Origin: Propioniciclava sp. MC1595
GTDB taxonomy: Bacteria; Actinomycetota; Actinomycetes; Propionibacteriales; Propionibacteriaceae
NCBI RefSeq assembly: GCF_017569205.1
Contig: NZ_CP071870.1
Coordinates: 744,001 to 808,000 of the forward strand
Direction: 5' to 3'
DNA length: 64,000 nucleotides
The translations under genes and the position numbers were made by a program. Below, one piece after another: positions 932-20,065 of the stretch (the first letter of the stretch is position 1; every line of letters begins with the position of its first letter). The notes under the pieces were generated by a model. The model did no database searches, was not told where the DNA came from, and saw only the letters and a list, made by a program, of their open reading frames with translations.

Positions 932-1130
932 CTATCCCCGATTCCCCACGTATTCCCCACGGCAAGGTGACGAAGTGGCAATCCATCTGCATAAGTCCTT
1001 GTCAGGGGGTCGTTATCGGCTGACAGAAGAGAGCTTCAACTCCTCTCTCGCGCACAAAATGTGCCTCTGACTAGGGCAAATACAGGAAATCGGCGGGAGG
1101 TGAAAACCTCTCGCCGATTCTCTGTTTCTG
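932..1130 (+). repeat. Dispersed structured element, copy A
   Basis: Complete copy of a non-coding element found four times in the first 20 kb. In order it holds TTCCCCAC boxes at 942-949 and 953-960 (11 bp apart), a conserved ~60-base stretch containing AAGGTGACGAAGTGGCAATC and CTTGTCAGGGG, the near-invariant CTTCAACTCCTCTCTCGCGC at about 1034-1053, and a 19-bp stem (1082-1100 with 1107-1125, loop TGAAAA). No T-run follows the stem, so it is not a standard terminator. A further TTCCCCAC lies near 1225, just before the IS256 element. Function unknown; a recombination site or a structured RNA are the leading options. Confidence 0.85.
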
Positions 1131-1236
1131 GGGTTGGATTCTCTCGTGGCAAGCGGCGATGCCGGGGTGGAGTGGTCCGGGGGACTGTCGGGAGAGGGGT
1201 CTCGTGCCGGGTTGGTGGGGCTGATTCCCCACGGGT

Positions 1237-2636
1237 GGGTCTGTCAAACGAACGGTGTAACTGGGTTGTGTTGTCATGCTGGTCTGGGGCTGCTGAGGCG
1301 GCCGTCGAATCGGATGTCGAAAGCGTTGAGGGCTTCCTTCCATCTCTGGGTCCAGCGGGCCCTGCCTTTGCCTGTGGGGTCGAGCGCCATGACGGCGAGG
1401 TAGACGCACTTGAGCGCGGCCTGCTCGTTGGGGAAGTGACCGCGGGCTCGGACGGCCTTGCGGATGCGGGCGTTGACCGACTCGATCGCATTCGTGGTGC
1501 ACACGATGCGTCGGATCTCGCGGTCGAAGCCGAGGAACGGGACGAACTCGGCCCAGGCGTTCTCCCACAACCGCACGATTGCCGGGTACTTGTCGCCCCA
1601 CGCTTCGGCGAACTCGAGGAATCGTTCCTCGGCCTCGGTGAGGGTCGCAGCCTGGTAGACAGGCTTCAAGGCCCGGGAGATGGCGTCCCAGTGCTGCCGG
1701 GCGGAGTACTTGAAGCTGTTGCGCATCAGGTGCACGATGCAGGTCTGCACGATCGTCTCCCTCCACACCGTGTTCACCGACTCGGGCAGCCCCTTGAGGC
1801 CGTCGCACACCACCATCAGGACGTCGTTCACGCCGCGGTTCTTGAGCTCCGTGAGGACCTGCAGCCAGTACTTGGCGCCTTCCCCACCATCTCCTGCCCA
1901 CAGGCCGAGGATGTCCCGGTTGCCCTCCGTCGTCACCGCAAGGGCGACGTAGATGGGCCGGTTGGCGACCTGGCCGTCTCGGACCTTGACGTGGATCGCG
2001 TCGATGAACACCACCGGGTAGACCGGGTCCAGGGGCCGGTTCTGCCACTCCAACATCCCGTCGAGCACATTGTCGGTGATCGTGGAGATCGTGGTCTTCG
2101 ACACCTCCGAGCCGTACACGTCGGCCAGGTGAGCGCTGATGTCGCCGTGGGTCATGCCGCGCGCCGACAGGGACAAGACGATGTCCTCGATCGACCCCAA
2201 CCGGCGCTGCCGCTTCGCGACGATCGTTGGTTCGAACGTTCCGGCACGGTCTCTGGGGACGCCGATGGTGACCGGGCCGGCCTTCGTCAGCACCGTCTTC
2301 GTCCGGGTGCCGTTGCGGGCGTTGCCGTCCGCAGAGGCGCCCTTGGTGTGTTTGTCGTAGCCGAGGTGGTCGGTGATCTCGCCTTCCAGCGCGGACTCCA
2401 GCACCAGTCGGGTCAACTCGGACAGCAGGCCGCCCTCCCCGTCGACCGACAGGCCCTGGCGTTGCGCGTCACCCACGAGCTGGGCGACCAGCCCCCGGTC
2501 CACCACCGGCGGCCGAGTCGCCTCCGTCATCACAGCCACTCCGGCTCCCTCCACCACAGCCGCTGGGGCCGTCTCAACCTGCCTGCTCATCGTGTTCCTC
2601 CTTGATCGGAGTTACACCGTTGACCGTACAGTCCCG
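1237..2636 (-). mobile_element. IS256-family insertion sequence, complete
   Basis: About 1.4 kb bounded by imperfect inverted ends: GGGTCTGTC...AACGGTGTAACT on the left, and on the right a stretch whose complement reads GGGACTGTA...CAACGGTGTAACT. One transposase gene fills it. The 8 bases on each side (CCACGGGT and GGCAGGCC) do not match, so no target duplication is seen; this suggests rearrangement after insertion or deletion at one flank. The left flank is the downstream TTCCCCAC box of repeat copy A. Confidence 0.85.
1274..2590 (-). CDS. IS256-family transposase (mutator type)
   Basis: A 438-residue DDE transposase of the IS256/mutator family. Typical features are the LVLESALEGEITDHLGYDKH region near residue 70, VVFIDAIHVKVRDG carrying the first catalytic Asp, VVCDGLKGLPESV with the second, and the C-terminal TTNAIESVNARIRKAVRARG with the Glu. 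The length is within the family's usual 400-440 residues and I see no frameshift, so the element is probably still active. It is read on the minus strand from ATG 2590. Confidence 0.95.
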   Translation of the reverse strand: MSRQVETAPAAVVEGAGVAVMTEATRPPVVDRGLVAQLVGDAQRQGLSVDGEGGLLSELTRLVLESALEGEITDHLGYDKHTKGASADGNARNGTRTKTVLTKAGPVTIGVPRDRAGTFEPTIVAKRQRRLGSIEDIVLSLSARGMTHGDISAHLADVYGSEVSKTTISTITDNVLDGMLEWQNRPLDPVYPVVFIDAIHVKVRDGQVANRPIYVALAVTTEGNRDILGLWAGDGGEGAKYWLQVLTELKNRGVNDVLMVVCDGLKGLPESVNTVWRETIVQTCIVHLMRNSFKYSARQHWDAISRALKPVYQAATLTEAEERFLEFAEAWGDKYPAIVRLWENAWAEFVPFLGFDREIRRIVCTTNAIESVNARIRKAVRARGHFPNEQAALKCVYLAVMALDPTGKGRARWTQRWKEALNAFDIRFDGRLSSPRPA

Positions 2637-2688
2637 GCAGGCCCTATCGGTCTTGGCTTGTCAAGCAGCTGGAAAGTTTGGATGTTCC

Positions 2689-3057
2689 ATGTTTGCGCTC
2701 GTTACCGTTCATGCTCTCAACCTCACGAAGAAGTACAGTAACCGGGAAGCGCAGAACGCAATTAGGCACTTCTTGTGGGTCGCGGGGCTGTCTCTGGTGA
2801 TGGGGCGCGATCATGCCAGGAGTATCGCGGCGGCGCATGAATTCGGGCTGCTCAATTTCGCTGAGAATAGGGCTGACAGTCGCAGAGACAGGGCGAACAA
2901 TGCCTTCACGCTCACCTGGATGAAGAACAAGTATGGGAACCGCAGGGTCGCCATTTCCGGAGTGTATTCGTACATGCTGAGCCTCAGGAAGACGGCGGAA
3001 CGACTATTTAATGAAGGGAAGTTCACGTGCGTCAAGGCATGCGGAAGAGCCTCGTAG
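2689..3057 (+). CDS. Possible polymorphic-toxin-type domain protein, probably N-truncated
   Basis: A small protein (122 residues from ATG 2689) of lower GC than its neighbours. It contains EAQNAIRHFLWVAGLSLVMG, then AAAHEFG and DSRRDRANNAF. This order (N-A-x-R-H-x-x-W, then H-E, then D-x-x-x-D-x-x-N-N) resembles the DUF6973-type domain seen at the C-terminus of secreted toxins; the assignment is tentative. The same frame stays open back to the IS256 end at 2636, so the gene may be the surviving C-terminal end of a longer protein cut by the IS. The next gene is a lipoprotein overlapping it by 31 bases, an arrangement seen in toxin-immunity pairs. No strong ribosome site was found for ATG 2689. 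Confidence 0.45.
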   Translation: MFALVTVHALNLTKKYSNREAQNAIRHFLWVAGLSLVMGRDHARSIAAAHEFGLLNFAENRADSRRDRANNAFTLTWMKNKYGNRRVAISGVYSYMLSLRKTAERLFNEGKFTCVKACGRAS

Positions 3058-3404
3058 TCTGGCTGGTAGTCGTTTTCGGGGGAGGTGCTCTCACGGGATG
3101 TATTCAAGACCCTACATGTTCTCCCGCGGGTCGTTCGCGGATGAACGCCGCGATCGTGGAGCTGTTGCAGATATCCCCTGGGCAAGTGGGATACCTGAGT
3201 ACGCCGGATTGTGATTCCGGTGCTAGCCTCAGCGCCACTCTTGAGTTGCAGATTTCCTGGGAGGAACTCATGTCCCGGCTTTCTGATAGATGTCGCGCGG
3301 AGGGCGAAGAGGCCGCATGTCTGTTGGGCGATGAGGAGTTCACTGTGTACCTCCATTCTGAGCTAGAGTCAGGCGTCGAGGTTACTATCTTCGAGGCGGA
3401 GTGA
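3027..3404 (+). CDS. Small predicted lipoprotein, candidate immunity protein
   Basis: A 125-residue protein with a clear lipoprotein signal: MRQGMRKS, a hydrophobic run (LVVWLVVVFGGGA) and a lipobox LTGC, so it should be anchored outside the membrane. After the anchor there are four further cysteines (Cys at DPTC, PDC, DRC and AAC) that could form disulphides, and an acidic C-terminus ending VEVTIFEAE. The GTG start at 3027 has AAGGGA eight bases upstream. It overlaps the preceding toxin-like gene, which fits co-expression. A membrane-anchored immunity role is inferred from context only; no family is recognised. Confidence 0.6.
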   Translation: MRQGMRKSLVVWLVVVFGGGALTGCIQDPTCSPAGRSRMNAAIVELLQISPGQVGYLSTPDCDSGASLSATLELQISWEELMSRLSDRCRAEGEEAACLLGDEEFTVYLHSELESGVEVTIFEAE

Positions 3405-3456
3405 TGTTCGGCGTTTGTCTCACTGATGCGGAACTGGCTGCCGCAACCGGGGTTTC

Positions 3457-3645
3457 TGCACGAGTAGGTGACAACCGATCTGTGGAGTCGTGAGGCCCTG
3501 CGGGGAGGATGCGCACCCTGCCGAATACCCATCCAAGAGAGTTTCGCGACGATTTCGTGGCCGTGGCCCGCAAGGGCGATGCGTCGATCGCTCAGATCTC
3601 GAAGGGCCTTCGGGATCAGTGAGTCCCCGTCCGGGTGTCATCGGC
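3457..3645 (+). pseudogene. IS3-family orfA 5'-end remnant
   Basis: This stretch matches the left end and start of orfA of the complete IS3 element at 41041-42293. Shared features are the end sequence TGCACGAGTAGGTGACAACC and the coding start corresponding to HPREF-DD-VAVARKGEA-IAQI. It is diverged and shifted in frame, and stops after about 60 codons. It shows that a related IS once sat here and decayed. Confidence 0.75.
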
Positions 3646-4108
3646 CGCGATCGGGCGGGCACTCGCACGTTCAGGGTGTGGATTACTGGCTCTTATAACT
3701 TGAGCGTGGGGTCATAGTTGGAGTCCGCCGGCGATGAGGAGCATTCTGATCTGACCGGAGTTACACAACTCGTCGCTGATTTAGGAACTGGATGGGTGCC
3801 CTGGAATTGTCTGAGCGTCTACCGAGACTATGACATCGCCGTACGCAAGGTTCGTCGGCGTCACCGCGACATTGGATGGTGTGGCGGCCTGACGTGCTCC
3901 AAACTACCGTCATGCCGCGGTTGGGAGATGATAAACCATTCACAATGTCTGGTACAAGACCACGGAAACCGCCCTCTACTGAAAGAACGGGGTCAGATTC
4001 TATTACAGTGTGACAGGGTATAGCTATCAGGGAGGGTTCTACTCATGACAACGGATCAGTCGCACCTGACCTGTGGTGAACTAGCTAGCTCGCCTAGCGA
4101 GCGCGGCA
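3646..4108 (+). other. Stretch without a convincing gene, degraded
   Basis: Open frames here change every 50-100 bases. One frame ends in a peptide-like tail (YYSVTGYSYQGGFYS then stop near 4049), preceded in the same frame by WYKTTETALY and a stop. That looks like the end of a small secreted protein broken by a point change. GC is lower than in the flanks. I see no RNA gene or IS end. Confidence 0.35.
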
Positions 4109-4447
4109 GTGGCTATGGGCAGTCTCGTTTACTCGCAGTTTGAAGATGACCTCATAGTGCTAGGTATCGCCGTTGTTCTCTCGTTCGCCAGCTGGCTGTG
4201 GGTGAAGAGCGCGGGATCTGTCCCAGTCGACGTGCCAATGACTGCACAGATTCTGGGAGCAGTGGTGTTGTTTGGCGTCGGTCTGTACGTTGGTTCGCTT
4301 GAGGTGGAAGGCTACGTGGCCTTGCTTGCCAGTGCAGGCTACGGGCTCTCGATCTTTTTGGTCCTCGGGTTGTTGTGGAGGGCGGCGAAGCGCAGGTCCA
4401 CGATGACAGACCGCCAGCCCCCAGGTGCTGACCGATCACAGTTCTAG
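4109..4447 (+). CDS. Small membrane protein, unknown function
   Basis: A 112-residue protein with three predicted membrane spans: IVLGIAVVLSFASWLWV, AQILGAVVLFGVGLYVG and GYGLSIFLVLGLLW. A basic, probably cytoplasmic tail (RAAKRRSTMTDRQ) follows, which suggests an outside-N, inside-C arrangement. The start could be GTG 4109 or ATG 4115; neither has a good ribosome site. I do not recognise a family. Regular hydrophobic periodicity and a single unbroken frame support it being real, but the neighbouring DNA is degraded on both sides and it may be non-functional. Confidence 0.45.
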   Translation: MAMGSLVYSQFEDDLIVLGIAVVLSFASWLWVKSAGSVPVDVPMTAQILGAVVLFGVGLYVGSLEVEGYVALLASAGYGLSIFLVLGLLWRAAKRRSTMTDRQPPGADRSQF

Positions 4448-4738
4448 CAGTGCCAGCCAGTGGGCAAGCAGGAAGAGATGCGGCCAGATCTGCCAGCCAG
4501 ACCGCGTCAGCAATGTCGGGCTTGCGGCCGGGCCTTGCTGCGCCTCTCGAAGCAATCCGATCTGACGTCTGCGTGGCGTGAGGTCGGCGATCGGTGCAGT
4601 CTGTCCCGCGCATCCGACCTGCCCTCACGCGTCTCCTCCACCTATGTCGTGTGTGGCGAACGAGCGGCGGTTACTACATCGGATTATGCAGAGAATCCGA
4701 TGTATTGAGCGTCGGCTGCCCGACGGCGAGTGGCCATA

Positions 4739-4982
4739 ACCGCCGCGGCCCGAGTTCCGCGCGTGTGAACCTGCCGACCTCGGTCAAGTCACCCAGGGCG
4801 AGGAGGCGGAGGACCCCCTTGATCTGACGCCGAGGTGGTTCAGGGGGGTGATGATCGCGGTCATCGGTCCCACAGGCGGCGCTGCCTTGATCTGCCCCAC
4901 ATGGGGGCCGCGCGCGGTCGGCGGCGACGCTGTCCCCCAACAGGGGAATGCATTCGTTATGTGGGATGGCTGGCTTGTGTGA
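4739..4982 (+). pseudogene. Possible C-terminal gene remnant
   Basis: An open frame of about 78 codons without an upstream start, ending GNAFVMWDGWLV then stop. It includes GVMIAVIGPTGGAALICP, and the composition looks coding rather than random. An internal GTG-ATG pair at about 4847 would give only a 45-residue product. No family is recognised. The rest of 4448-5114 shows nothing I can support. Confidence 0.25.
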
Positions 4983-6198: not shown

Positions 6199-6199
6199 C

Positions 6200-6412: not shown

Positions 6413-8173
6413 ATGCCCATACTTTTCGGCGCTGATCCGATCCAGACTGAAGTGCAGGTCATCCTTGCGGCCCTGGCCGACGGGAAGGGCATCGATCACG
6501 GCGTGGAGCGGCAGTATGTGGACCTCAAGGAGGAGCATGGACGCCGTGATCGCCAGGGCGGCATCGGGCCCAGTAGTCCCCGCAATCAGGAGGCCGCGCA
6601 GGAGCTTGCGGCGGCGGCAGCCTGCATGGCGAATACGCCCGGTGGTGGCGCGCTGATCGTCGGGGTGTCTGACGACGGCCAGTTAGTCGGGACCGATCTG
6701 GAGGCCGAGTGGTTGCGGCACCGCATGTGGGAGTTGTCGGGCAAGGCCTTGACGGTGGACGTCGCGATCCAGGAGGTCTCGGGTCGGCGGCTTCTGGTGC
6801 TGCGTGCCCCTCAAGCTCTGGAGCCCATCCGTGTCAATGGGAAGATCCGTTGGCGGGTGGGGACCAATTGCGTCGAGATTGACGCTCACACCTGGCATGC
6901 GCGTCGTATGGCCGATCTCAACTTCGACTGGTCGAGCGAGGAATCCAGCGTCCCTGTCGAGGCGGCCCGTCCGGCTGCTCTGGAGTTGGCGCGCGAGTTG
7001 CTGCGCGCCTCGGGGGAGGATCATTCGGAGGAGTTGGCTGCCGACACCGACAGGAGCTTGCTGAGGCGGCTCAATGTGGTGTCCCCGGGAGGTCGGCTGA
7101 CCAATGCGGGTGTGATTGCCTTCGTGGGGCGCGGGGATCCCTGTCTCGACTATGTGCGACGTGCTCAGACGGGAGGTGATTCGCTGAGCCGACTCCGCAG
7201 GCCGGATCGGTCTCTGATCGAGGAGTTGGTAGAGGTCTTCCAGGCCGTCGATGCCAACACGCCCACGATCCACGTTCAGCACGGCCTGGTGATCGGGCAG
7301 CAGCGTGAGATCCCTCGGCGCGCCGCGCGTGAAGCGATCGTCAACGGTGTCGCGCACCGCGAGTGGGGCGTCTCGGAGCCGACTCTGGTGGAGCACGTGG
7401 GCCGGCTCCTGCGAGTGACCAGCCCCGGCGGGTTCATCGGAGGCGTCACAACGGACAACATCATTACCCACCCGTCGCGCTCCCGGAACCGGGCCCTCGC
7501 CGAACTGCTCGCGGCACTGCGGGTCGCCGAACGCGAGGGGATCGGCGTTGATCGCATGGTCGCCGACATGGTCAGCGTCGGGCATCCCGCGCCAGTGATC
7601 GAGGAGGTCCCGGGCCCTTACGTCCGGGCCGAACTCATCGGCGACGATCTGGACGTCGGCTGGATCCAGTGGCTTCACTCCATCGACCCGGCCAACGAGG
7701 CCGACGACCTGAACTCCCTGCTGATCCTGCGGCAGTTGGTGGAGACCGGCTGGATCGACCCACTGCGGGCGGCGACGACGATCCAGGACACCGTCTCGGC
7801 GGCATCAGGTGCGCTCGCCAAGCTGTCCAGGGCCTCGATCGTGGGTGCGCCGATCGTTGAGACGATCATCGGAAGCCCTGACGGCACGGACCCGGTGTGG
7901 CGGCTCAGTCACGCTGGTGCCGATCTGCTGCGTCGCCTCGACGGGCAGGTGAACCGGACCCGCATGTGGCCGAGCCGCGAACGAGTCGCGGCCTCCTATG
8001 CCAAGGCCCGCGGACGGATCAGTTCCACCGAGTTGGCGAGCCTCGTCGGTGCCTACGCGAGCAACGTCGGCACGGTCCTCAAACGATTGGAAGAAGACGG
8101 CGTCCTGGCCCCGTCCCGTGCCTCCCGGCGCGGCACAGGCTTCTACTACCGCTACATCGGAGAGCCGTCGTGA
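6413..8173 (+). CDS. AlbA_2/Schlafen-type ATP-binding protein with winged helix
   Basis: A 586-residue protein. The N-terminal third has the AlbA_2 (Schlafen-like) domain, NTPGGGALIVGVSDDGQLVG and RWRVGTNCVEID. The middle has a histidine-kinase-like ATPase segment (AIVNGVAHREWGV, VTSPGGFIGGV, SRNRALAELL, EREGIGVDRM). The C-terminus ends in a winged helix (SSTELASLVGAYASNVGTVLKRLEEDG). Such proteins are usually annotated as transcriptional regulators or RecG-like proteins and are common in defence islands; the biochemical role here is unknown. AGGGAGGGTGGGAGG precedes ATG 6413, and TCATAA/TTATGA arms at 6365-6393 may be an operator. Its last ~63 bases recur at 788-850. Confidence 0.75.
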   Translation: MPILFGADPIQTEVQVILAALADGKGIDHGVERQYVDLKEEHGRRDRQGGIGPSSPRNQEAAQELAAAAACMANTPGGGALIVGVSDDGQLVGTDLEAEWLRHRMWELSGKALTVDVAIQEVSGRRLLVLRAPQALEPIRVNGKIRWRVGTNCVEIDAHTWHARRMADLNFDWSSEESSVPVEAARPAALELARELLRASGEDHSEELAADTDRSLLRRLNVVSPGGRLTNAGVIAFVGRGDPCLDYVRRAQTGGDSLSRLRRPDRSLIEELVEVFQAVDANTPTIHVQHGLVIGQQREIPRRAAREAIVNGVAHREWGVSEPTLVEHVGRLLRVTSPGGFIGGVTTDNIITHPSRSRNRALAELLAALRVAEREGIGVDRMVADMVSVGHPAPVIEEVPGPYVRAELIGDDLDVGWIQWLHSIDPANEADDLNSLLILRQLVETGWIDPLRAATTIQDTVSAASGALAKLSRASIVGAPIVETIIGSPDGTDPVWRLSHAGADLLRRLDGQVNRTRMWPSRERVAASYAKARGRISSTELASLVGAYASNVGTVLKRLEEDGVLAPSRASRRGTGFYYRYIGEPS

Positions 8174-8274
8174 GTTCACTGGATTGACAGGCGAGAATGC
8201 GGCTCTGACACGACGCGCGCTCCGAAGGCTGGCGCGACGCTACCCCGACGCGCCGGGGCTCGAGATGCGGGGAC

Positions 8275-10354: not shown

Positions 10355-10361
10355 CCCGACC

Positions 10362-10930: not shown

Positions 10931-10964
10931 CCGAATACTCAGTGATCAGCGGGTGCCGGCCGCC

Positions 10965-11096
10965 TATGCTGAAGGGCAGCCTTGGACGCGAGATCCGCGC
11001 GGACCTCGGGTGCAGTGCTATTCCCCACGTATTCCCCACGGCAAGGTGACGAAGTGGCAATCAATCCGCATAAGACCTTGTCAGGAGGCCATTATC
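10965..11096 (+). repeat. Dispersed structured element, copy B, left part
   Basis: Contains the leader shared with copy C (TATGCTGA-GGGCAGCC and GGACGCGAGATCCGCGCGG), TTCCCCAC boxes at 11021-11028 and 11032-11039 (11 bp apart), then AAGGTGACGAAGTGGCAATC up to CCATTATC, where an ISL3-family element is inserted. The remaining part resumes at 14708. Confidence 0.85.
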
Positions 11097-11177
11097 GGCT
11101 CTTCACGATTGAGGGTGTAGTTGGGGTGGGGGTTCGGCGGCGCGTCGGGGCGGGGGGTAGGTCGAGGTCCTCCGAGG

Positions 11178-11726
11178 ATGGAGGTTCCTACACCGATCCA
11201 CCTGGAAGACCTCGACGTGTCCCAAGCTACCTTTGTTCGTCCTGACCTGACCACGTTCGCCGGCTTGGACGGGCTCGGCTTGGAGGTCGTCGGCCAGCGT
11301 GTCGAGCCCGACCGGGCGGTGCTGGCGTGCCGGGTCATCGAGCCCGACGACTGGTGCCACCGGTGTGGCTGTGAGGGCACGCCCCGCGACACGGTGACCC
11401 GCCGGTTGGCGCACGAACCGTTCGGCTGGCGACCAACCACGCTGGTGGTCACGCTGCGCCGTTACCGCTGCTCGGGGTGTGGCCACGTGTGGCGCCAGGA
11501 CATGAGCAAGGCGGCCGAGCCCCGGGCGAAGTTGTCGCGTCGGGCGCTGCGGTGGGCGCTGACCGGGATCGTGGTGCAGCACCTGACGGTCGCCCGGATC
11601 GCCGAGGGGCTCGCGGTGTCATGGGACACCGCCAACAACGCGGTCCTGGCCGAGGGCCAACGCGTCCTGATCGCCGACCCGACACGCTTCGACAAGGTGA
11701 CGGTGATCGGCGTGGATGAGCACGTG
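11178..11726 (+). CDS. ISL3 transposase, exon 1
   Basis: The N-terminal 183 codons hold a zinc-finger domain (CHRCGCEGTPRDT, YRCSGCGHVWRQD), a helix-turn-helix (LTVARIAEGLAVSWDTANNA) and the start of the DDE core (KVTVIGVDEHV). The frame is interrupted by the intron directly after the GTG codon of DEHV, inside the motif with the first catalytic Asp. ATG 11178 is the likely start. Full transposase can only be made if the intron splices. Confidence 0.85.
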
Positions 11727-13903
11727 GTGCGCCACGAGGCGCTGTTGTTTCGGATGGAGGTGAGAGACCTGCATCGCCCCGCTGTCGTAGCAGTGGGGTG
11801 AAGCTGGCGGCAGCCTGACTTCGGGGAACGCCGGGGTTGGGTGGGAGCAGCCGCGACAAAGTCAGGACGGTCCAGCACTACCGGATGGGCCGGGTCTGGT
11901 GAGCAAGACGGGAAGGTGTACGAGAGGAACCGGTGTCGTAAAGCCTCTTGATCGTCGACCAGCTCGAACCCGGTGGATGCGGGCTGGAGTGCGGTGCGTA
12001 ACCGCCGTGGGGGTCGTCAGCCAGACGGCCGTCGGGGTGGGGAACTGTCGGAACGGTGAATGTGTCGGGTCCGGCAGGTTGTGGTGAAGGTCTACGGCGT
12101 AGCCACGACGATGCCGCAGGGGCAAAGCCGGGCGCCTCGCCCGTCAACCGAACAGCAGTGAACGTGGGAACCCTCCGCACTCCGTTCCCCACCACCTTGG
12201 TGGGGATAGGCGCGTTGCCGGCCGAAGGGTGTGGGTGGGGGCGGAGCCGTCGTAGTACTCCGAGGTCGGGAAAGCCGACCGCATGGGAAAGGGCGGCAGC
12301 GAGAGGAAGCAGGAAGGAACTGTGATGTCCGAAGACGCACCGGTGAATACCGGTGCCACTGGGTGGCCGAGCGATGCTCGCGCCTTTCTGGCGGTACGGA
12401 GGATGCAGACCAAACTGCATGGTTGGGCGGCCGCGGATCGCGGCCGCCGGTTTGATGATCTGTACAACCTGGTCTGTGACCCGGCGTTTCTGACGATGGC
12501 GTGGGAACGCGTCGCTGGGAACAAGGGGGCACGGACACCGGGGGTGGACCGGGCCACGGTGGCCCACGTTACCTCCGGGATGGGGGTCGAGGCGTTCCTG
12601 CGGCAGGTACGGGACGAGTTGAAGTCCCGGACCTTCCAGCCGGTGCCGGTGCGGCAGGTGATGATCCCGAAGGCCAGCGGCAAGCTGCGCAAGTTGGGCA
12701 TCCCCACCGTCACCGACCGGGTGGTGCAGGCCGCCTTGAAGCTGGTACTGGAACCTATTTTCGAGGCGGACTTCCAACCGTGCTCGTACGGGTTCCGCCC
12801 GAACCGGCGCGCTGCTGACGCGATCGCCGAGATCCACCACTTCACCAGCAAACGGTATGAGTGGGTGTTGGAGGCCGACATTGAGGCGTGTTTCGACATG
12901 ATCGACCACACCGCGTTGATGGACCGCCTGCGAGCGAGGGTTTCGGACAAGCGTGTGCTGGCGTTGGTGAAGGCGTTCCTGAAGGCGGGGGTGCTCACCA
13001 CGGTGGGTACCACCGAGGGAACGGTGACCGGCACCCCGCAGGGCGGAATCTTGTCCCCGTTGCTGGCCAACATCGCTTTGTCCGTGTTGGACGACGAGTT
13101 CGCACGTCGCTGGACCCAGGAGATGGGAACGGCGAACCAGCGGAACCGGCGCCGCTATCACGGCGAGGCGACCTACCGGCTCATCCGGTACGCCGACGAC
13201 TTCGTGATCGTGGTCAAAGGCGAACGATCTGATGCCGATCAGTTGCGCGAGGAGGTGGCAGTCGTGTTGGTCCCGATGGGGCTGCGACTGTCGCCGGACA
13301 AGACCCGAGTGGTCCACATCGACGACGGGTTCGACTTCCTCGGCTTCCACATCCGACGGATGCGGAAACGCGGGAGCCACAAGTCGTTTGTGTACACCAA
13401 GCCGTCGACGAAGGCGATCGCCTCGATCAAGGCACGGGTGAAGGCCATGACGTACAGAGCAACCCTGCACCGCGACCCGGGCTACCTGATGGCCTACCTG
13501 GGTCGAGTGTTGCGTGGGTGGGCGAACTACTTCCGGCACGCGGTGGCCAAACGAGCCTTCAACGCGGTCGATTCCTACACGTGGGAACGGATCACGTCGT
13601 GGCTACGGAAGAAGCACCGTCGTATCGGATGGCCAGAGCTCCGGCGCAGGTACTGTCTGCCGGGCAGTTGGCGGCTCGCCCACGACGGGGTCAGGTTCAA
13701 GGGCGCAGCCAGCGTCCCCATCGTCCGGTACCGCTACCGCGGCTACCAGATCCCGACCCCGTGGACCCCATCGACCGTCGCAAGCTGACCAACCCCCTCA
13801 CGTGGAGAGCCCGGTGCGGTGAAAGTCGCACGCCGGGTTCGGCGGGCGGGCTGTGGAAACCCACCACGGGTAACCGTGGCAGGGCGCCACAGCCCGACCC
13901 AAC
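11727..13903 (+). mobile_element. Group II intron
   Basis: The 5' boundary is GTGCG, the group II consensus. The 3' end is ...GACCCAAC before TGGCGGCAC of the next exon. Domain V is recognisable as the 34-nt hairpin 13807-13840, starting GAGCCCGG with tetraloop GAAA and ending CCGGGTTC. A domain VI stem (GGGCTGTGG...CCACAGCCC) follows to 13903. It encodes a reverse transcriptase/maturase upstream of domain V, as usual. The insertion site is a coding sequence rather than a terminator hairpin. Confidence 0.9.
12325..13788 (+). CDS. ltrA: Group II intron reverse transcriptase/maturase
   Basis: A 487-residue intron-encoded protein. The RT blocks are in order: RKLGIPTVTDRVVQAALKLV, PCSYGFRPNRRAADAI, VLEADIEACFDMIDH, GTPQGGILSPLLANIALSV, the catalytic YADDFVIVVKGE (~residue 290) and FDFLGFHIRRMRKRG. 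A maturase/thumb region (LGRVLRGWANYFRHAVAKRA) follows, then a short basic C-terminus. No HNH endonuclease domain is visible, so retrohoming would depend on nicked or replicating DNA. The start is ATG 12325 with AGGAAGGA 8 bases upstream. The protein should bind and help splice its own intron. Confidence 0.95.
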   Translation: MSEDAPVNTGATGWPSDARAFLAVRRMQTKLHGWAAADRGRRFDDLYNLVCDPAFLTMAWERVAGNKGARTPGVDRATVAHVTSGMGVEAFLRQVRDELKSRTFQPVPVRQVMIPKASGKLRKLGIPTVTDRVVQAALKLVLEPIFEADFQPCSYGFRPNRRAADAIAEIHHFTSKRYEWVLEADIEACFDMIDHTALMDRLRARVSDKRVLALVKAFLKAGVLTTVGTTEGTVTGTPQGGILSPLLANIALSVLDDEFARRWTQEMGTANQRNRRRYHGEATYRLIRYADDFVIVVKGERSDADQLREEVAVVLVPMGLRLSPDKTRVVHIDDGFDFLGFHIRRMRKRGSHKSFVYTKPSTKAIASIKARVKAMTYRATLHRDPGYLMAYLGRVLRGWANYFRHAVAKRAFNAVDSYTWERITSWLRKKHRRIGWPELRRRYCLPGSWRLAHDGVRFKGAASVPIVRYRYRGYQIPTPWTPSTVAS

Positions 13904-14701
13904 TGGCGGCACACCCGTAAGGGCGACAAGTACGTGACCGTGATCATCGACCTCACTCCGATCAGGGACGATACCGGCCCGGCACGCTTGCTCGACATGG
14001 TCGAGGGCCGCTCGAAACACGCCTTCAAGACGTGGCTGGCCGCCCGCCCGAAGGAGTGGCGTGACCAAGTGGAGGTCGTCGCGATGGACGGCTTCACCGG
14101 GTTCAAGACCGCCACCACCGAAGAACTCCCCGACGCCACCCCCGTGATGGACCCGTTCCACGTCGTCCGGCTCGCCGGGGATGCCCTGGACCGTTGCCGG
14201 CGCCGGATCCAGCAGCAAGTCCACGGCCACCGGGGTCGGGCCGGCGACCCCCTCTACGGCGCCCGCAGGACCCTCCACACGGGCGCCGATCTGCTCACCC
14301 CCAAACAGCAGGCCCGCCTGGACGCCCTGTTCGGCGACGACGACCACGTCGAGGTCGAAGCGACCTGGTGCATCTACCAAGACATGATCGCCGCCTACCG
14401 CGCCCCCGATCCAGCCACGCGACGAAGCCTGATGGAACAACTCATCGCGAAGGTCACCAGCGGTGTCCCCGGCGCGTTGGTCGAGGTGATCACCCTCGGT
14501 CGCACCCTGAAGAAGCGAGCCGCGGACGTGCTGGCCTACTTCGACCGGCCCGGCACGTCGAATGGGCCCACCGAGGCGATCAATGGCCGGCTCGAACATC
14601 TCCGCGGCTCCGCGCTCGGCTTCCGGAACCTCACCAACTACATCGCCCGCAGCCTGCTGGAGACAGGCGGATTCAGACCCCGCCTACACCGTGGATCGTG
14701 A
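13904..14701 (+). CDS. ISL3 transposase, exon 2
   Basis: It continues exon 1 in frame after intron removal: DEHV-WRHTRKGDKYVTV. It carries the rest of the DDE catalytic region (VVAMDGFTGFKTATTEELPD and VMDPFHVVRLAGDALD with the second Asp, GTSNGPTEAINGRLEHLRGS with the Glu) and a C-terminal tail ending LETGGFRPRLHRGS. There is no start of its own: in unspliced RNA this half would not be translated into transposase. Confidence 0.85.
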   Translation, partial: WRHTRKGDKYVTVIIDLTPIRDDTGPARLLDMVEGRSKHAFKTWLAARPKEWRDQVEVVAMDGFTGFKTATTEELPDATPVMDPFHVVRLAGDALDRCRRRIQQQVHGHRGRAGDPLYGARRTLHTGADLLTPKQQARLDALFGDDDHVEVEATWCIYQDMIAAYRAPDPATRRSLMEQLIAKVTSGVPGALVEVITLGRTLKKRAADVLAYFDRPGTSNGPTEAINGRLEHLRGSALGFRNLTNYIARSLLETGGFRPRLHRGS

Positions 14702-14707
14702 AGAGCC

Positions 14708-14826
14708 CCATTATCGGTTGAAAGAAGAGAGCTTCAACTCCTCTCTCGCGCACAAAAGTGTTTTTGAGTAGTGCAAATACAGGGAATCGGCGAGAGGTGA
14801 AACCTCTCGCCGATTCTCTGTTCCTA
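14708..14826 (+). repeat. Dispersed structured element, copy B, right part
   Basis: Starts with the second CCATTATC of the ISL3 duplication and continues the element. AGAGAG and CTCTCT flank CTTCAACTC; the conserved CTCTCTCGCGCACAAAA follows, then the 19-bp stem ACAGGGAATCGGCGAGAGG (14779-14797) with CCTCTCGCCGATTCTCTGT (14803-14821). All pairs form except one G-T wobble. The loop is TGAAA. Confidence 0.85.
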
Positions 14827-14929
14827 GGGCTGGATCGCTGGTGGCAACGGGTGATGCTGGGTGGTCTGCTTCGATCGGCGGCGACCCCGAGTCCCCTGTG
14901 TTCCGACGTCTCGCGTATGCCACCGCATG

Positions 14930-16309
14930 TCACGGCGGCTTCGTGGTCGGAAACCCTTCATCCAAGCGCGGTTCGTTGACCGCCCAGATGCCCATCGCGC
15001 CAAGGCAGGCGTCTCCCGCAGGCTCAGCTGTCTGGGCGGGCGGGGACGGCTCGGATGGGCGCGCGGCCAGGGTGTCGAACTTGGTGCTGGCCAGGCGTCG
15101 CTCGGTGACGGTGACAAGGTCGAGCACGTCACGGGTCTGGTAGTAGCGGACCCCGCGCCGCTCGTGGGGGTGGAGGATTTCCGCTGCGACCAACTCGGCG
15201 AGGGCACGGTCGGCGGCGACGTGGGACACGCCGTGGATGCGTTGCACGGTGGCGCTGGTGATGACGGGCGTGGCGGGCAGGTCGCGCACGATGTGTGCGG
15301 TGGCCGAGTCGCTACGGACGCCGCGGACCTTGCCCTGGTCGGATCTAGCGCGGTTGAGCCTGTCTTCCCAGTCGGTACGAAGGTCGGCCAGGTCTGCGGC
15401 GAGGCGTCCGGCTTGCTCGGTGGCGGTGAGGACGGCGGAGGCGAACACGCGGAGCCAGGCGGCTTGGGCGGTGTGGAGCCCGTCCGAGCCGACCGGGTCA
15501 GGGTGCCGGTAGGCAGTGAGCCCTTCAACGTACTCGTTGCGGAGAGTCGACAGGATCAGGCTGACCGGCAGTACCGCCTCGGTGGTGAGCCCGCGTCGGG
15601 TGAGCACGGTGTGGATGAGGGCGCGGCCGACGCGTCCGTTGCCGTCAGTGAACGGATGGATCGTTTCGAACTGGGCGTGCGCGAAGCCGGCCTGGACAAT
15701 GGGCGAGTGCCCACCTCCGTTGAGGTAGCCGACGAGGTCATCGAGCAGCGCCGGAACGTGTTCCGGGGCGGGGGGGACGAAGTCGGCGTCCAGGGGGTGG
15801 TGGTCGGAGCCGCCGATCCAGTTCTGCACGGTGCGGACGCCGCGGTGCTGCGGCTCGTCGGGCAACAACGCGGAGTGCAGTTCAAGCAGGTGCTCGACCG
15901 TCACCTGTGGTGCTGCAACAAGGACGGTCCGGGCTTCGTGCAGGACCGTCATGTTGTTGGCGACCAGCTGGGCTTGGGCGGACACGTCGGGGACGGCCTC
16001 CTGGGCGCCGAGTTCGGCCAGGGCCACCTGCTGGACCGACGGTGCGATGCCCTCGATCCGTGATGAGGCGATGGCTTCGGAACGCAGCAGGAAGCGGGCA
16101 ATGCCGGCCAGGTCGCGGGCATCTCCGGACAGGCCCCGGACCGCCTGCTCGGCTCGGCCCACCAACTGGTCGACATCGGGCGGCAGCAGCAGCGGGCTCC
16201 CCAGCAGCGTGTCCGGAACGTAGCGACGATACGTGCCCGAGCGTCGATCTCGCCGGGGGAGACCTGATTCGATCGAGGACGCCCACTCGTCTTGTTCCCA
16301 TGTCGCCAT
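14930..16309 (-). CDS. Fic-domain protein (putative AMPylase)
   Basis: A 459-residue Fic protein. The N-terminal domain contains the inhibitory helix motif SSRIEGI (S-x-x-x-E-G) near residue 82. The core has the full active-site motif HPFTDGNGRVGRAL near 216, so both catalysis (His) and ATP-anion binding are intact. A C-terminal winged-helix-like segment (TSATVQRIHGVSHVAADRALAEL) follows. Fic enzymes usually transfer AMP to target proteins; class II proteins with an N-terminal inhibitory helix are self-restrained. It stands alone between repeat copies B and D. The last ~35 residues (after FDTLAAR) look unlike the family and may be read-through into unrelated DNA. Confidence 0.9.
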   Translation of the reverse strand: MATWEQDEWASSIESGLPRRDRRSGTYRRYVPDTLLGSPLLLPPDVDQLVGRAEQAVRGLSGDARDLAGIARFLLRSEAIASSRIEGIAPSVQQVALAELGAQEAVPDVSAQAQLVANNMTVLHEARTVLVAAPQVTVEHLLELHSALLPDEPQHRGVRTVQNWIGGSDHHPLDADFVPPAPEHVPALLDDLVGYLNGGGHSPIVQAGFAHAQFETIHPFTDGNGRVGRALIHTVLTRRGLTTEAVLPVSLILSTLRNEYVEGLTAYRHPDPVGSDGLHTAQAAWLRVFASAVLTATEQAGRLAADLADLRTDWEDRLNRARSDQGKVRGVRSDSATAHIVRDLPATPVITSATVQRIHGVSHVAADRALAELVAAEILHPHERRGVRYYQTRDVLDLVTVTERRLASTKFDTLAARPSEPSPPAQTAEPAGDACLGAMGIWAVNEPRLDEGFPTTKPP

Positions 16310-16484
16310 GTGCCTGCTTTCGTTTCGCGCGTCCCGGGTTCTCGTAATGATAGAGGTCTAAGGTTGCATGCTGGGAGTTGTGGCTAACAGATCGACGAAC
16401 TGGATCGTCGCCAGCCCGGAAGTCGGCCCGGTGAGGAAGGGAGGGCGCTCGGCCAGTACGCCTGAGCTACGCTCAAGTCGGTTC

Positions 16485-16566
16485 CACGCGCCTCGGCGGT
16501 GCAGTCCACGAAATCCCCACGCGTTCCCCACCACAAGGTGACGAAGTGGCTTCAAGCTCCATAAGA
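16485..16566 (+). repeat. Dispersed structured element, copy D, 5' part only
   Basis: It has the paired boxes ATCCCCAC (16513-16520) and TTCCCCAC (16524-16531), again 11 bp apart, and then AAGGTGACGAAGTGGC...CATAAGA as in the other copies. It is cut at 16566 by an ISL3-type end (GGCTCTTCACAATCGAGGG). The hairpin half is missing. Confidence 0.8.
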
Positions 16567-16718
16567 GGCTCTTCACAATCGAGGGTGTAGCCGCGGCCTG
16601 AATCCGCCGGTCTCGAGCAGCGATCGTGCGATGTAGTGGGTGAGGTTCCGGAAGCCAAGGGCGCTGCCGCGGAGGTGTTCCAGCCGGCCATTCAGCCTTC
16701 GGTAGGCCCATTCGAGGT
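16567..16718 (-). pseudogene. ISL3-family right-end remnant
   Basis: About 150 bases starting with the terminal repeat GGCTCTTCACAATCGAGGG. Read on the minus strand they encode a frame-shifted version of the ISL3 transposase tail (GTSNGPTEG, then NTSAAAPLASGTSPTTS). The sequence resembles but is not identical to the complete ISL3 element nearby. It was inserted at an equivalent point in repeat copy D. Confidence 0.75.
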
Positions 16719-16735
16719 GCCCCGACTTGGCTCAT

Positions 16736-17135
16736 TTAGTGTCGCCTGCGCGCTTGGTGGATCGCGTCCAGCCAGGCTTGGGCGTCGTCGGGTAGGGGGT
16801 TCTCGGCGGTGACGATGGTGTCGCCGGCTTGGATGTCGATTGTGCGGTGGCGACGCAGCGTCTTGACGAGGGCCTTGATGCTGGCGCCGGTGGTGCTCTC
16901 GAGCCATCGGGCGACGGCGAGGGCGGCGAACACGATGGTGAGGTGGGCTTCGATCGAGTCCTTCAGGTGGTGGTAGACCGGCCGGGCCTTCAGGTCCGAC
17001 TTGGACATCCGGAAGGACTTCTCGACCTGCCACAGCTGGTGGTAGGCCCCGATCACGTACTCCGGGGTCGGGGTGGCCAGGTTGGTGATGTAGCCGTTCC
17101 AGCCTGCCAGGGTGCGGGCCTTGGCCTCCAGTTCG
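16736..17135 (-). pseudogene. IS1634-family transposase C-terminal fragment
   Basis: The minus strand encodes EAKARTLAGWNGYITNLATP, IGAYHQLWQVEKSFRMSKSD, VYHHLKDSIEAHLTIVFAAL and ASIKALVKTLRRHRTIDIQ, the C-terminal third of IS1634-type transposases, including the E of the DDE triad in VEKSFRMSK. The N-terminal two-thirds are missing. The fragment is fused on its upstream side to an IS3 orfB fragment. Confidence 0.8.
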
Positions 17136-17531
17136 GGTCGCGGTGAAGTCGCGTTGCACCAGGTCGGGCGGCCGCGGCGCGGAGGAGTCCGACGTGGTGG
17201 TGACGAACTTCCTGCCCCTGACAACGCCCTGCATGCCGCGGGCCCGCGTCAGGCGGGGCACCTGACACCGCGGTGCCTCGACGCCGTCCCGCTTGAGCAA
17301 GTGCCACATCTTGCGGTAGCCGCGACCCCCGCGACCCTTGGTCTTGTCGGCCTGCAGTGCCTCGATCCGTTCCCACACATAGGCGTCCGACAAGGCCCGC
17401 TTCGATGGTGTGCGGGCCTTGAAGGCGTAGTAGCCCGACGGGGCGACCTGCACACCGTGCCCGCTGAGCACACGGCAGATCGGCTCGACCCCGAACCGGA
17501 CCCGGTAGTCGTCGATGAACCCGACTACCAC
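17136..17531 (-). pseudogene. IS3-family OrfB N-terminal fragment
   Basis: Reads MVVGFIDDYRVRFGVEPICR, APSGYYAFKARTPSKRALSD and GRGYRKMWHLLKRDGVEAPR up to DLVQRDFTA. This is the helix-turn-helix part of IS3-family OrfB, cut just before the DDE core. It overlaps the 3' end of orfA (17525-17866), the normal arrangement for programmed frameshifting. The downstream part was replaced by IS1634 sequence. Confidence 0.85.
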
Positions 17532-17866
17532 GGCAAACGCGGGTCGAGCTCCCGCGCGAAGAAACTCGACGCCGCCAACAAGATCTCGTTCGCCCGCTTC
17601 AACTCGCGGACCTCCCGCTCAAGTTCCTTGATCCGCTTCCCATCCTCGGTGGTCGTGCCGGGACGCTTACCCGCGTCGATGTCGGCCTGCTTCACCCACC
17701 CGCGCAGGGTGTCGGGATTCACGCCGATCCTGGCGCCGATCCGCGTCACCGCCGCGGTGACCGACAACTCCGGCTCCTCCTGGCGCGCCTGTTGCACCAG
17801 ACGAATGGCGCGGTCCCGCAACTCTTGGGGGTACTTCCTCGGTGCTGGCATGGTCTGACCCTGCAT
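17525..17866 (-). CDS. IS3-family OrfA
   Basis: A 113-residue DNA-binding OrfA with helix-turn-helix (PQELRDRAIRLVQQ, GVNPDTLRGWVKQADIDAG) and a C-terminal leucine-zipper-like coil (RIKELEREVRELKRANEIL). It is complete in length and frame. Because its OrfB partner is truncated, the element cannot transpose; OrfA could at most repress related elements. ATG 17848 (MPAPRKYP) is an alternative start. Confidence 0.85.
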   Translation of the reverse strand: MQGQTMPAPRKYPQELRDRAIRLVQQARQEEPELSVTAAVTRIGARIGVNPDTLRGWVKQADIDAGKRPGTTTEDGKRIKELEREVRELKRANEILLAASSFFARELDPRLPW

Positions 17867-17977
17867 CCTTCCGTTGAATCAGACCCTCCACCTGAGCCTC
17901 GTTCCGCCGGAGCGCATTTGTAGGTCACCCGCTGGAACGCACCCGGCGCGGCGTGTGGAAGCTCCTTTGTGGCGGGG

Positions 17978-19264
17978 TCAGCGCGGGGCTCCGAGTGTGA
18001 CCGGGGTCCACAGCCGGTCGATGGGCATGACGTGGAGACGGTCGGCGTAGGTGTAGGAGCGGGTTCCGGTGGTGAGGATGATCCCGGCGGCGAACCGTGG
18101 TCCGAGGGCGGCGCGGAGTTGACCGAGACCGCGGAAGTCGCCGCCTGGGGCCCGTTCGCTGGCTTTGACCTCGATCGCAACGACGGTGCCGTCGTCGTAC
18201 TCGATGACCACGTCGACTTCTGCGCCGTCACTGGTCCTCCAGTGGCCCAGAGTCACGGGCTCGTCGAGCCAGGAAGCCTGCTTGCGGATCTCCCCGACGA
18301 CGAAGGTCTCCAGCAGGTGCCCGAAGTCGGTGAGTGATGCCGGGTCGAGTCGGGTGAGCTTGTCGGGCGTGAGCCGCAGCAGCCGGGCAGCCAGCCCGGA
18401 GTCGACAACATGGACCTTGGGTTTCACACTGACCCGTGAGCGCAGGGTCTTGCCCCACGCCGGCAGCCGAACCACGAGGAAGAGGTCCTCGAGTAGCCGA
18501 AGGTGACCCTCCACGGTGGCGCGACTGACGCCGAGCCTCTCCGCAGCAGCAGAGACGTTCAGCAGTTGCCCCGTCTGTGCCGCAATCAGACCCAGCAGGT
18601 CGGTCATTGCCTGTCGTTCCCGGATGCGTCCCAGTTCCAGAGCATCCCGCTCGACCGATGCCCGCACGAAGTCATCGAACCATCGTGCTCGGGCCGCGCC
18701 GGAACGTCGTAGGGCCAGGGGTAGCCCTCCGGCGCAGACACGCTCCACGTAATCCTGGCGCGTGGTCGTTGAGGACGGGATCCGGCCGACCACACCCGCG
18801 GGGTCGACAGGCAACACCTCCAGGAGGTTCTCGCTCACCCGAGCGATCTCACCTTGGGACAGCGGCCAGATGGTCAGGGAGTGCAACCGTCCCGTGAGGG
18901 CCTGCGCCGTGACGGGCAGGGCGTCCTGCCGGGTCGATCCCGTGATCACGGCGGTTCCGGGCAGGCTGCCCTCGCGGTTCAGCCTCGCTTTGAGCGCGTC
19001 CAAGATGTCGGGCACCCTCTGGTACTCGTCGAAACACACCGGCGCCGCACCACCGACGACCGAGGCCAGATTCCCCACGACCGCCTCGCGCACCTCGACG
19101 TCGTCCAGGTCGAGAACCGTTCCCCCCACATCGGCAGCGAACCTGCGCAGCACTGTCGACTTCCCAACCGATCGCGGGCCGTGCAGAGCGATCACCGGCT
19201 CCTCCGCGACCAGCCCCGTCAGAAGTAGACCCACCCTTCGTGGGACCAGCGAGTCGAGGACCAT
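17978..19264 (-). CDS. AAA ATPase with DUF4143 domain
   Basis: A 428-residue ATPase. Walker A is GPRSVGKST (~residue 30), Walker B VCFDEYQRVPDIL (~97), then sensor-like AVITGSTRQDALP. The middle region contains a helix-turn-helix (NVSAAAERLGVSRATVEGHLRLL). The C-terminal DUF4143 part carries a PD-(D/E)xK-like nuclease signature (GAEVDVVIEYDDGTVVAIEVKAS). Proteins of this family occur as solitary genes in accessory regions; their biological role is not established. A second, distant member lies at 44525-45796. It sits between repeat copies D and C. Confidence 0.85.
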   Translation of the reverse strand: MVLDSLVPRRVGLLLTGLVAEEPVIALHGPRSVGKSTVLRRFAADVGGTVLDLDDVEVREAVVGNLASVVGGAAPVCFDEYQRVPDILDALKARLNREGSLPGTAVITGSTRQDALPVTAQALTGRLHSLTIWPLSQGEIARVSENLLEVLPVDPAGVVGRIPSSTTTRQDYVERVCAGGLPLALRRSGAARARWFDDFVRASVERDALELGRIRERQAMTDLLGLIAAQTGQLLNVSAAAERLGVSRATVEGHLRLLEDLFLVVRLPAWGKTLRSRVSVKPKVHVVDSGLAARLLRLTPDKLTRLDPASLTDFGHLLETFVVGEIRKQASWLDEPVTLGHWRTSDGAEVDVVIEYDDGTVVAIEVKASERAPGGDFRGLGQLRAALGPRFAAGIILTTGTRSYTYADRLHVMPIDRLWTPVTLGAPR

Positions 19265-19279
19265 GAGCTCAACCTAGCA

Positions 19280-19800
19280 GACGTGACGCTGTGTACTACG
19301 CAAACGCGAACAGCCAAACCTAGCAAACATGAACGCTCTTGGTGTGCCATCTTGAGCGTGGCAAGAGGGCAGGGCGGAGGACCCGGTGGTGTCCGGAGCT
19401 GTCCACCGGCTGCAGTCGGCACCCGTAATGCGGGGTGACTGGCTTGTCTGGGCCTGTGATGGGAGGCCGCGATGCAGTTCGAGAAGTGCCACTGCAGACT
19501 CTTCGGTCGCGGTCACCCTGCCCGACCACGTGAAGGAGATTGATGCCCTGCGCGCCTTCCGGCTGCTGCGGCTGGTTGACTCCTTCGGCCAGTTCGGACG
19601 GACCGGGCGCGGGGGAGCGCGGAACGCAGCGGACGTTGCCGATGAGACCGAGCACCTGGGCCCGCACGCCACGTCACTTGGTGGCCGGAGCGCGACCTGG
19701 GTGTCGTCGGTCGCAGGCGGCGAGGCTGCGGGGGCTCCCACGCTCGCGGCCCTTTCCCTCGACGTGCTGGCAGTGCTGCAGTGAACCGTGAGGCTCTCGG
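19280..19800 (+). other. No supported gene
   Basis: Several overlapping frames exist, but none has a family match, a ribosome site or consistent codon bias. The best, on the plus strand near 19450-19780 (ATVTLPDHVKEIDALRAF-like), could be a remnant. I see no IS end or RNA gene. Confidence 0.4.
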
Positions 19801-19827
19801 CGGTGGTCCGTGGGTGCGAGCCGAATA

Positions 19828-20065
19828 TGCTGAGGGGCAGCCCTGGACGCGAGATCCGCGCGGGTCTCAGGTGCAGAGCTATTCCCCACGTATTCCCCAC
19901 AGCAAGGTGTCGCAATGTCGATCGACGGTCATCAGACCTTGTCAGGGGGCCATTATCGGTTGATAGAAGAAAGCTTCAACTCCTCTCTCGCGCACAAAAA
20001 GTTCCCCTGACTACGGGTTATACAGTGAAAAGGCGGGAGGCAAGAACCTCTCGCCTTTTCACTGT
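19828..20065 (+). repeat. Dispersed structured element, copy C (complete)
   Basis: The longest uninterrupted copy. It has the leader shared with copy B (TATGCTGA-GGGCAGCC), TTCCCCAC boxes at 19882-19889 and 19893-19900, CTTGTCAGGGGGCCATTATC, the conserved CTTCAACTCCTCTCTCGCGC, and a stem ACAGTGAAAAGGCGGGAGG (20022-20040) with CCTCTCGCCTTTTCACTGT (20047-20065). Relative to copy B three stem positions change on both strands and pairing is kept. Confidence 0.88.

Follow-up and report, generated by a model that had tools for sequence, protein, structure and literature searches.

In the genome of Propioniciclava sp. MC1595 (G000; a single contig of 3.43 Mb) we analysed a window of 64,000 nucleotides, positions 744001–808000, in which a first-pass annotation had described a repeated non-coding element with a covarying hairpin. 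Judged from its sequence, each copy of this element is an attachment site of integrative elements at the 3′ end of a tRNA-Leu(CAG) gene, and what appeared to be an orphan RNA-like element is explained in this way. In the reading that we consider very probable, the copies are junction sites produced by the integration of islands, the hairpin most likely replaces the terminator of the tRNA gene, and the islands carrying it are probably moved by a borrowed integrase.

Attachment sites at a tRNA-Leu gene

The four copies lie where the first-pass annotation had placed them, and they are homologous and non-coding: A (~928–1134), B (10942–11096 and 14708–14830), a half copy (16485–16566) and C (19803–20074). 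Searching the whole genome with copy C revealed an additional full copy beyond the window (genome 719888–720126) and a short match at 651629–651676. Every match was on the + strand, the one minus-strand match being copy C's own palindrome. The stretch preceding the stem, CTTCAACTCCTCTCTCGCGC, had been called invariant and is indeed the same in the copies, but it is no part of an independent element: it corresponds to the T loop and 3′ acceptor strand of tRNA-Leu(CAG), with its first C (G in the tRNA) as the sole exception. An intact tRNA-Leu(CAG) gene lies at genome 651569–651652, 93 kb upstream of copy A. The 19-nt core TTCAACTCCTCTCTCGCGC has five exact matches in the genome (the tRNA gene, 720037, 745035, 758733 and 763975), and one more core site, with one mismatch, is another tRNA-Leu gene. 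As at the site of a tRNA-targeting tyrosine integrase, the core is the 3′ end of a tRNA and an intact gene is kept at one end.

To the left of the core, the P arm (~155 nt) consists of a TATGCT box, a short inverted repeat, two TTCCCCACG-type repeats 11 nt apart and the motif CCTTGTCAG; in a few P arms the likeness is limited to the segment running from the repeats up to the core, and copy A lacks the outer part. To the right, the P′ arm has a CTGACTAGGG-like motif and the hairpin at +29 to +72, and most P′ arms have further TTCCCCAC repeats ~150–190 nt from the core. We refer to P′ arms of this kind as P′-I and to a second type, without a strong hairpin, as P′-II. In the 188 kb around the tRNA gene and the window (both strands) TTCCCCACG occurs 16 times, compared with 2.2 expected from base composition, and 15 of these occurrences sit at attachment sites. 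The repeats on both sides of the core are likely integrase arm-binding sites.

We then classed 61 sequence-distinct core sites of Propionibacteriaceae by their left and right flanks. Sites were merged by sequence near the core, and identical sites of different genomes were counted once (this joins the two P′-I sites of G203 to those of G049). The tRNA is followed by another flank at 18 sites, including L072, the second tRNA-Leu gene of G000 with its core mismatch, and by a P′ arm at 12 (six P′-I, six P′-II). A P arm is joined to a P′ arm at 14 sites (ten P′-I, four P′-II), with one more having a partial P arm (P′-I), and to another flank at eight, with two more having a partial P arm. The left side of the last six was unclassified (two with P′-I, four with another flank). 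Such other flanks are not always native: in G003 (L016/L134) the flank is a P′ arm of a third kind, accompanied by an integrase of its own, and in G110 and G127 it is similar to native flanks as well as to other arms in Tessaracoccus. On this classification all four recombination configurations (attB, attL, junction and attR forms) occur, joined in the core, which is the pattern expected of recombination within it.

A covariance model of the P′-I arm identified 20 copies, spread over 14 of the 198 family genomes and five genera. Each copy lies directly after the core (14 checked directly and six by coordinates), although most of them had trained the model, and Infernal was run with stricter filters. 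A DNA search with the whole site (E 1e-8) found it in 21 of the 198 genomes. The core in its attP form, with a C, is matched exactly in 19 stretches of genome_contigs, all named Propionibacteriaceae or genera thereof, and had no exact match in viral_contigs. A phage attP was rejected on the latter result and on phage integrases being less than 60% identical.

Conservation of the hairpin

The hairpin folds with 20 pairs in copy B (z-score −8.3), 19 pairs in C (−8.1) and one mismatch in A (−5.7); for each copy, none of 200 shuffled sequences folded as well. The 19-bp stem and imperfect copy A of the first-pass annotation thus hold, except that B folds with 20 pairs. All three double changes it had noted between B and C were correct (alignment columns 33/68, 37/64 and 38/63), but a fourth pair, 43/58, differs as well: A-U is replaced by G-U, a one-sided change that keeps the pairing.

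Its broader claim, compensation at every variable pair, is true of the inner stem only, since six outer pairs are often unpaired. In an alignment of 17 distinct P′-I arms (L085 was excluded for its different arm, and L077 also stands for L114, the two having identical arms), the inner 12 pairs are unbroken throughout, with double changes at 37/64 and 38/63 (the same seven sequences) and at 40/61 (one sequence). Among the outer seven pairs, one is always formed and six are unpaired in 2 to 9 of the sequences. One subgroup of arms re-pairs the outer stem in a shifted register, and the RNAalifold consensus retains the 12 inner pairs and drops the outer stem in the register of the alignment. Uncompensated variation in wider homologues, which the annotation had named as counter-evidence to a selected fold, is therefore present in the outer pairs and absent from the inner 12.

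Standard pairs fill 89.4% of the cells in the 17 arms (shuffled mean 82.9), the covariation score is 0.202 (shuffled mean 0.104) and 16 cells are changed on both sides (shuffled mean 6.7); none of 500 shuffles reached any of these values, which come from arms that are not independent, the seven with U-A and C-G at columns 37 and 38 being one subfamily. Two other counts did not go beyond the shuffles: 4 pairs show a double change (127/500) and 11 further pair types occur (96/500). No Rfam family matched the element above the gathering score, and a known RNA family was discarded as a candidate.

The hairpin resembles an intrinsic terminator

In the first 90 nt past the core the mean folding z-score is −4.7 for 19 P′-I sites and −3.5 for 16 tRNA-Leu loci with other flanks; at nt 100–190 the corresponding values are −0.5 and −0.1. 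The ten P′-II arms gave −0.8 and −0.75 in these two intervals. At the other tRNA-Leu loci, unrelated hairpins, mostly followed by T, occupy the same slot. We scored terminators with a formula of the d'Aubenton-Carafa type. The score, reliable only as a comparison with shuffles and other flanks, was above 0 at 18 of 19 P′-I sites and in 0 of 174 mononucleotide shuffles, as well as at 10 of 16 other tRNA flanks, 5 of 7 P arms with another flank and 4 of 6 remaining sites. Fold and terminator statistics cover the sites with enough sequence (16 of the 18 tRNA sites and 7 of the 8 P-arm sites with other flanks) and count L085 among the 19 P′-I sites. On the opposite strand 8 of the 19 P′-I sites scored above 0, so some hairpins may work in both directions.

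The P′-I arms have a GC-rich hairpin followed by a T-rich stretch, the T run lying partly within the stem in one subfamily. Because of this terminator-like form and its position in the tRNA terminator slot, the hairpin is most likely an intrinsic terminator that, in an island adjoining the tRNA gene, replaces the gene's own. The first-pass annotation had found no named family that fits; the unit is an attachment site at tRNA-Leu, and its hairpin fits an intrinsic terminator. A rule that integrase-bearing arms lack terminators was dropped, as it is true of P′-II only: hairpins of other integrase-bearing arm types scored 27.6 (L134), 11.0 (L177), 4.9 (L174), −4.0 (L149) and −4.5 (L175).

Islands without a tyrosine integrase

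The islands are stacked in tandem, and the part of the stack inside the window includes three whole sites and one half site. The first island of the stack (genome 651.65–720.04 kb, 68 kb) is ICE-like (ICE, integrative and conjugative element), its scanned open reading frames (ORFs) including genes for a T2SSE ATPase, a TraG/TraD coupling protein, LysM, HsdM and an ArdC-like protein. It begins after the tRNA with a P′-II arm containing four TTCCCCACG sites, which is followed by a PF00589 integrase gene that is apparently frameshifted. At the same place in G110, directly after the P′ arm at the tRNA, there is an intact PF00589 integrase of 376 aa.

Twelve P′-I units could be delimited by a P′-I arm on the left and a core on the right of one contig: three in G000 (25.0, 13.7 and 5.2 kb), two each in G203 (3.9 and 3.7 kb), G049 (5.2 and 3.7 kb) and G188 (3.0 and 14.8 kb), and one each in G127 (21.8 kb), G110 (23.5 kb) and G138 (12.7 kb). 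None of the 12 contains a match to PF00589 (tyrosine integrase) at E 0.001; serine recombinases were not searched as a family or genome-wide. As judged by PF00589 only, all 12 thus have attachment sites on both sides and no integrase, as do cis-mobilizable elements (CIMEs). Selected ORFs of 7 of the 12 units were surveyed with Pfam, and among these ORFs no conjugation or mobilisation genes were seen.

An integrase profile built from 37 sequences and applied up to 3 kb past the core gave matches at 0 of 18 P′-I, 5 of 10 P′-II and 6 of 37 other sites. The P′-I scan comprised 20 rows representing 19 sites (L012:37 repeats L002:1650), of which 18 had at least 1000 nt downstream. L162 (G110), one of the five P′-II sites with an integrase, had been fetched because of it; the six other sites include three that entered through the integrase search (L134, L138 and L149), two of which, L138 and L149, have the same sequence downstream. 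The P′-I arms differ from the arms of the integrase-bearing P′-II type.

Among the cargo that Pfam recognised in selected ORFs are peptidases, a P-type ATPase and DcuA/B in the G000 units; the small chain of carbamoyl-phosphate synthase, phosphoenolpyruvate carboxylase, a Mur ligase and TerC in the G127 unit; and a HAD hydrolase in a G203 unit. The G127 unit also carries a P-type ATPase gene, and the G110 unit has ORFs with a similar beginning (L158–L161 for the two genomes). Housekeeping-type cargo is thus found on a mobile unit in two Tessaracoccus genomes (G127 and G110).

Nested elements and neighbouring genes

Copy B is one site split by an ISL3-family insertion sequence (IS), with the 8-bp sequence CCATTATC on both sides (Table 1). 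The transposase gene of the IS is itself broken by a group II intron, whose reverse transcriptase/maturase (RVT_1, GIIM) lies at 12283–13788. The first-pass annotation had allowed for the element being the degraded end of a known IS. This was rejected: copy B contains an IS with ends of its own and an 8-bp duplication, and the half copy is cut by an IS end without being one itself. The only two Rfam matches in the window were ALIL (17439–17566) and the group II intron (13805–13903). The ALIL pseudoknot (− strand, 59 bits) overlaps a transposase remnant (HTH_Tnp_1 at 17525–17866), an arrangement we take to be that of IS3-type programmed frameshifting.

Table 1. Attachment sites and the nested insertion sequence in the window (window coordinates)
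Feature	Position	Strand	Details
Copy A, P arm	928–1033	+	TTCCCCACG repeats at 942 and 953; CCTTGTCAG motif; no homology to other P arms left of ~928
Copy A, core TTCAACTCCTCTCTCGCGC	1035–1053	+	3′ end of tRNA-Leu(CAG)
Copy A, P′ arm type I	1054–1134	+	hairpin 1082–1100 / 1107–1125, one mismatch; further TTCCCCACG at 1225
Copy B, P arm	10942–11096	+	TTCCCCACG at 11021 and 11032; ends in the 8-bp target CCATTATC
ISL3-family IS within copy B	11097–14707	+	transposase in two pieces, 11121–11801 and 13934–14701
Copy B, continued	14708–14830	+	target duplication 14708–14715; core 14733–14751; P′ type I hairpin 14779–14797 / 14803–14821
Half copy, P arm only	16485–16566	+	cut by ISL3-type IS end 16567–16692; no core or P′ arm after it
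Copy C, P arm	19803–19974	+	starts TATGCT; repeats TTCCCCACG at 19882 and TTCCCCACA at 19893; CCTTGTCAG
Copy C, core (tRNA-Leu 3′ end)	19975–19993	+	
Copy C, P′ arm type I	19994–20074	+	19-bp hairpin 20022–20040 / 20047–20065; terminator-like, TTTT within its 3′ side
Copy C, P′-side TTCCCCACG repeats	20147–20185	+	at 20147, 20166 and 20177; candidate integrase arm sites

Positions 782–850 and 8114–8182 form a direct repeat of 69 nt with 94% identity, one copy lying shortly before site A. To the right of copy C the window contains PemK/MazF-like and Fic/Doc-like genes (21457–22504) and a type I restriction-modification set (32584–40702; HsdM, specificity subunit, another Fic and HsdR-like). These genes are island-type cargo, and no attachment core marks their right end. 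A search for relatives of the AAA_14/DUF4143 gene in viral contigs found none. Elsewhere in the genome (contig C1), four similar sets of three adjacent tyrosine recombinase genes are present at 73899–76355, 2780793–2783156, 3090160–3092616 and 3378226–3380682, one of them with a shortened member; we presume that they resemble a Tn554-type transposon.

Discussion

We propose that a tyrosine integrase would recombine an incoming circle with the chromosome at the tRNA 3′-end core that both of them carry. Integration would rebuild the tRNA and leave the island downstream, its far end bearing a new core as the target of the next island, and repeated integration into that new core would build a tandem stack. 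The tRNA's own terminator would be shifted to the far end of the island, with the P′-arm hairpin taking over its role; within a stack the hairpin may insulate neighbouring islands. As the delimited P′-I islands have no tyrosine integrase, their mobility probably relies on a supplied one. Its source would probably be related ICE-type elements, a damaged copy of which sits first in the stack. The P′-I units are thus probably best read as CIME-like islands that bring a replacement tRNA terminator and are mobilised by the integrase of a related element.

Several observations weigh against this account. The far end of the stack to the right of copy C was not found, and a search with the flank of G008 for the native right flank of the stack in G000 yielded, besides tRNA matches, only a 69% stretch at 388345–388903. 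An empty site for the complete G127 island was not found in 39 genomes of its genus: matches beginning at the core stopped within ~73 nt, and three such loci carry integrases. As for the terminator, 6 of the 18 positive P′-I sites score just 0.5, 6 of 16 tRNA loci with other flanks score below 0, and L085, classed as P′-I by loose motifs, has no such hairpin. The P′-II arms score above 0 at 0 of 10 sites, so a terminator is not obligatory.

The repeated, non-coding and hairpin-bearing nature of the unit would also fit a self-spreading small non-coding RNA or an element like a miniature inverted-repeat transposable element, and the TATGCT box that starts most P arms could, we presume, serve as a promoter −10. 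We nevertheless find this origin highly improbable and rejected it, as full copies occur only at tRNA-Leu cores. The copies in G000 are all on one strand and, the half copy excepted, at such cores; the left and right halves occur apart, joined to the tRNA or to other flanks; all 20 model matches directly follow the core, bearing in mind that most trained the model; and Rfam offers no match. A different possibility is that the hairpin acts as DNA, a cruciform or inverted repeat in the P′ arm that is bound by the integrase or an excision factor and whose pairing is kept for symmetry. The hairpin does sit between the core and the arm repeats, and the P′-side repeats lie ~40–50 nt further from the core than in P′-II arms, about the length of the hairpin. 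However, P′-II and other arm types lacking this sequence use the same core, the loop and outer stem are variable, and the unrelated hairpins found in the same slot at other tRNA-Leu loci look as terminators would, which makes a DNA-level role unlikely.

That the integrase-less islands are dead, decayed ICEs, with a P′-I arm derived from an autonomous ICE type outside this sample, is a more serious contender, to which we give slightly less than an even chance. Passages of PMC5704250 and PMC7563491 describe CIMEs as decayed elements that keep their attachment sites. IS debris is abundant in the islands of the window, and 5 of 10 P′-II sites likewise have no integrase within 3 kb. Set against this are the difference in integrase presence between P′-I and P′-II sites (0/18 versus 5/10; Fisher p 0.003, for sites that are not independent and include the integrase-fetched L162 among the five) and the spread of integrase-less P′-I sites over five genera and two diverged hairpin subfamilies. 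We tentatively put forward a further reading, possible though on balance doubtful, in which the P′-I islands are not wrecked ICEs but long-lived, integrase-less satellite cassettes that spread among Propionibacteriaceae. They would borrow the P′-II integrase at the same tRNA, their arm with its strong terminator would spare tRNA-Leu expression, and the tRNA locus would function as a cassette array for units of 3–25 kb.

The P′ arm can serve as a marker of integrated islands in Propionibacteriaceae (14 of 198 genomes by the arm model). Since insertion into a tRNA gene displaces its terminator, an element may have to bring a new one, and hairpins in attachment sites could be favoured by selection for this reason in general. 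With the integrase-less units, the persistence of islands that have no integrase of their own can be studied.

Comparison with known systems

The arrangement is similar to the CIMEs and tandem accretion of Streptococcus thermophilus/salivarius (ICESt1/ICESt3), as covered in parts of PMC5704250 and PMC7563491, where islands bounded by attachment sites and devoid of recombination or transfer genes are stacked with ICE-type elements at the 3′ end of a conserved gene. In contrast to the streptococcal CIMEs, the delimited P′-I units lack a tyrosine integrase in 12 of 12 cases and share a distinct arm with a terminator-like hairpin. In the Propionibacteriaceae metagenome-assembled genome Hs463_bin120 (L092:3492–3684), a tRNA-Leu core with hairpin is followed 192 bp on by a second core with a nearly identical hairpin; this double core resembles the geneless microCIMEs mentioned in a portion of PMC7563491.

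A further parallel is the ssrA locus of Dehalococcoides (sections of PMC3146451), where several islands delimited by a 20-bp direct repeat lie in tandem behind a single tRNA-like gene; 15 of the ssrA islands are reported to have no integration modules and are suggested to be cis-mobilizable. They differ in their target, ssrA, and in their unrelated host, and the word 'terminator' appears 0 times in the main text of that paper.

Actinobacterial tRNA-targeting elements are alike in that the integrase here combines PF00589 with an N-terminal SAM-like domain. The G110 integrase shares 37% identity with an integrase from a Micromonospora rosaria plasmid record of 11 kb and with mycobacteriophage integrases, and no phage or plasmid record reaches 60%. 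Elements of this class include the pMR2/pSAM2 type, which targets tRNA genes, and mycobacteriophages. Unlike these phage and plasmid elements, the first island of the stack has T2SSE and TraG/TraD genes.

For E. coli prophages, part of PMC2951348 discusses what might be gained when an element and its tRNA are coupled in transcription. By title and the start of the abstract, the open-licence literature yielded no account of tRNA-targeting elements whose attachment site holds a terminator and none of tRNA-targeting elements in Propionibacteriaceae, which is not proof of absence from print. From sequence comparison the arrangement is of a known kind, and it is set apart by an arm type that carries a terminator-like hairpin and, among the sites sampled here, occurs only in units that seem to lack a tyrosine integrase.

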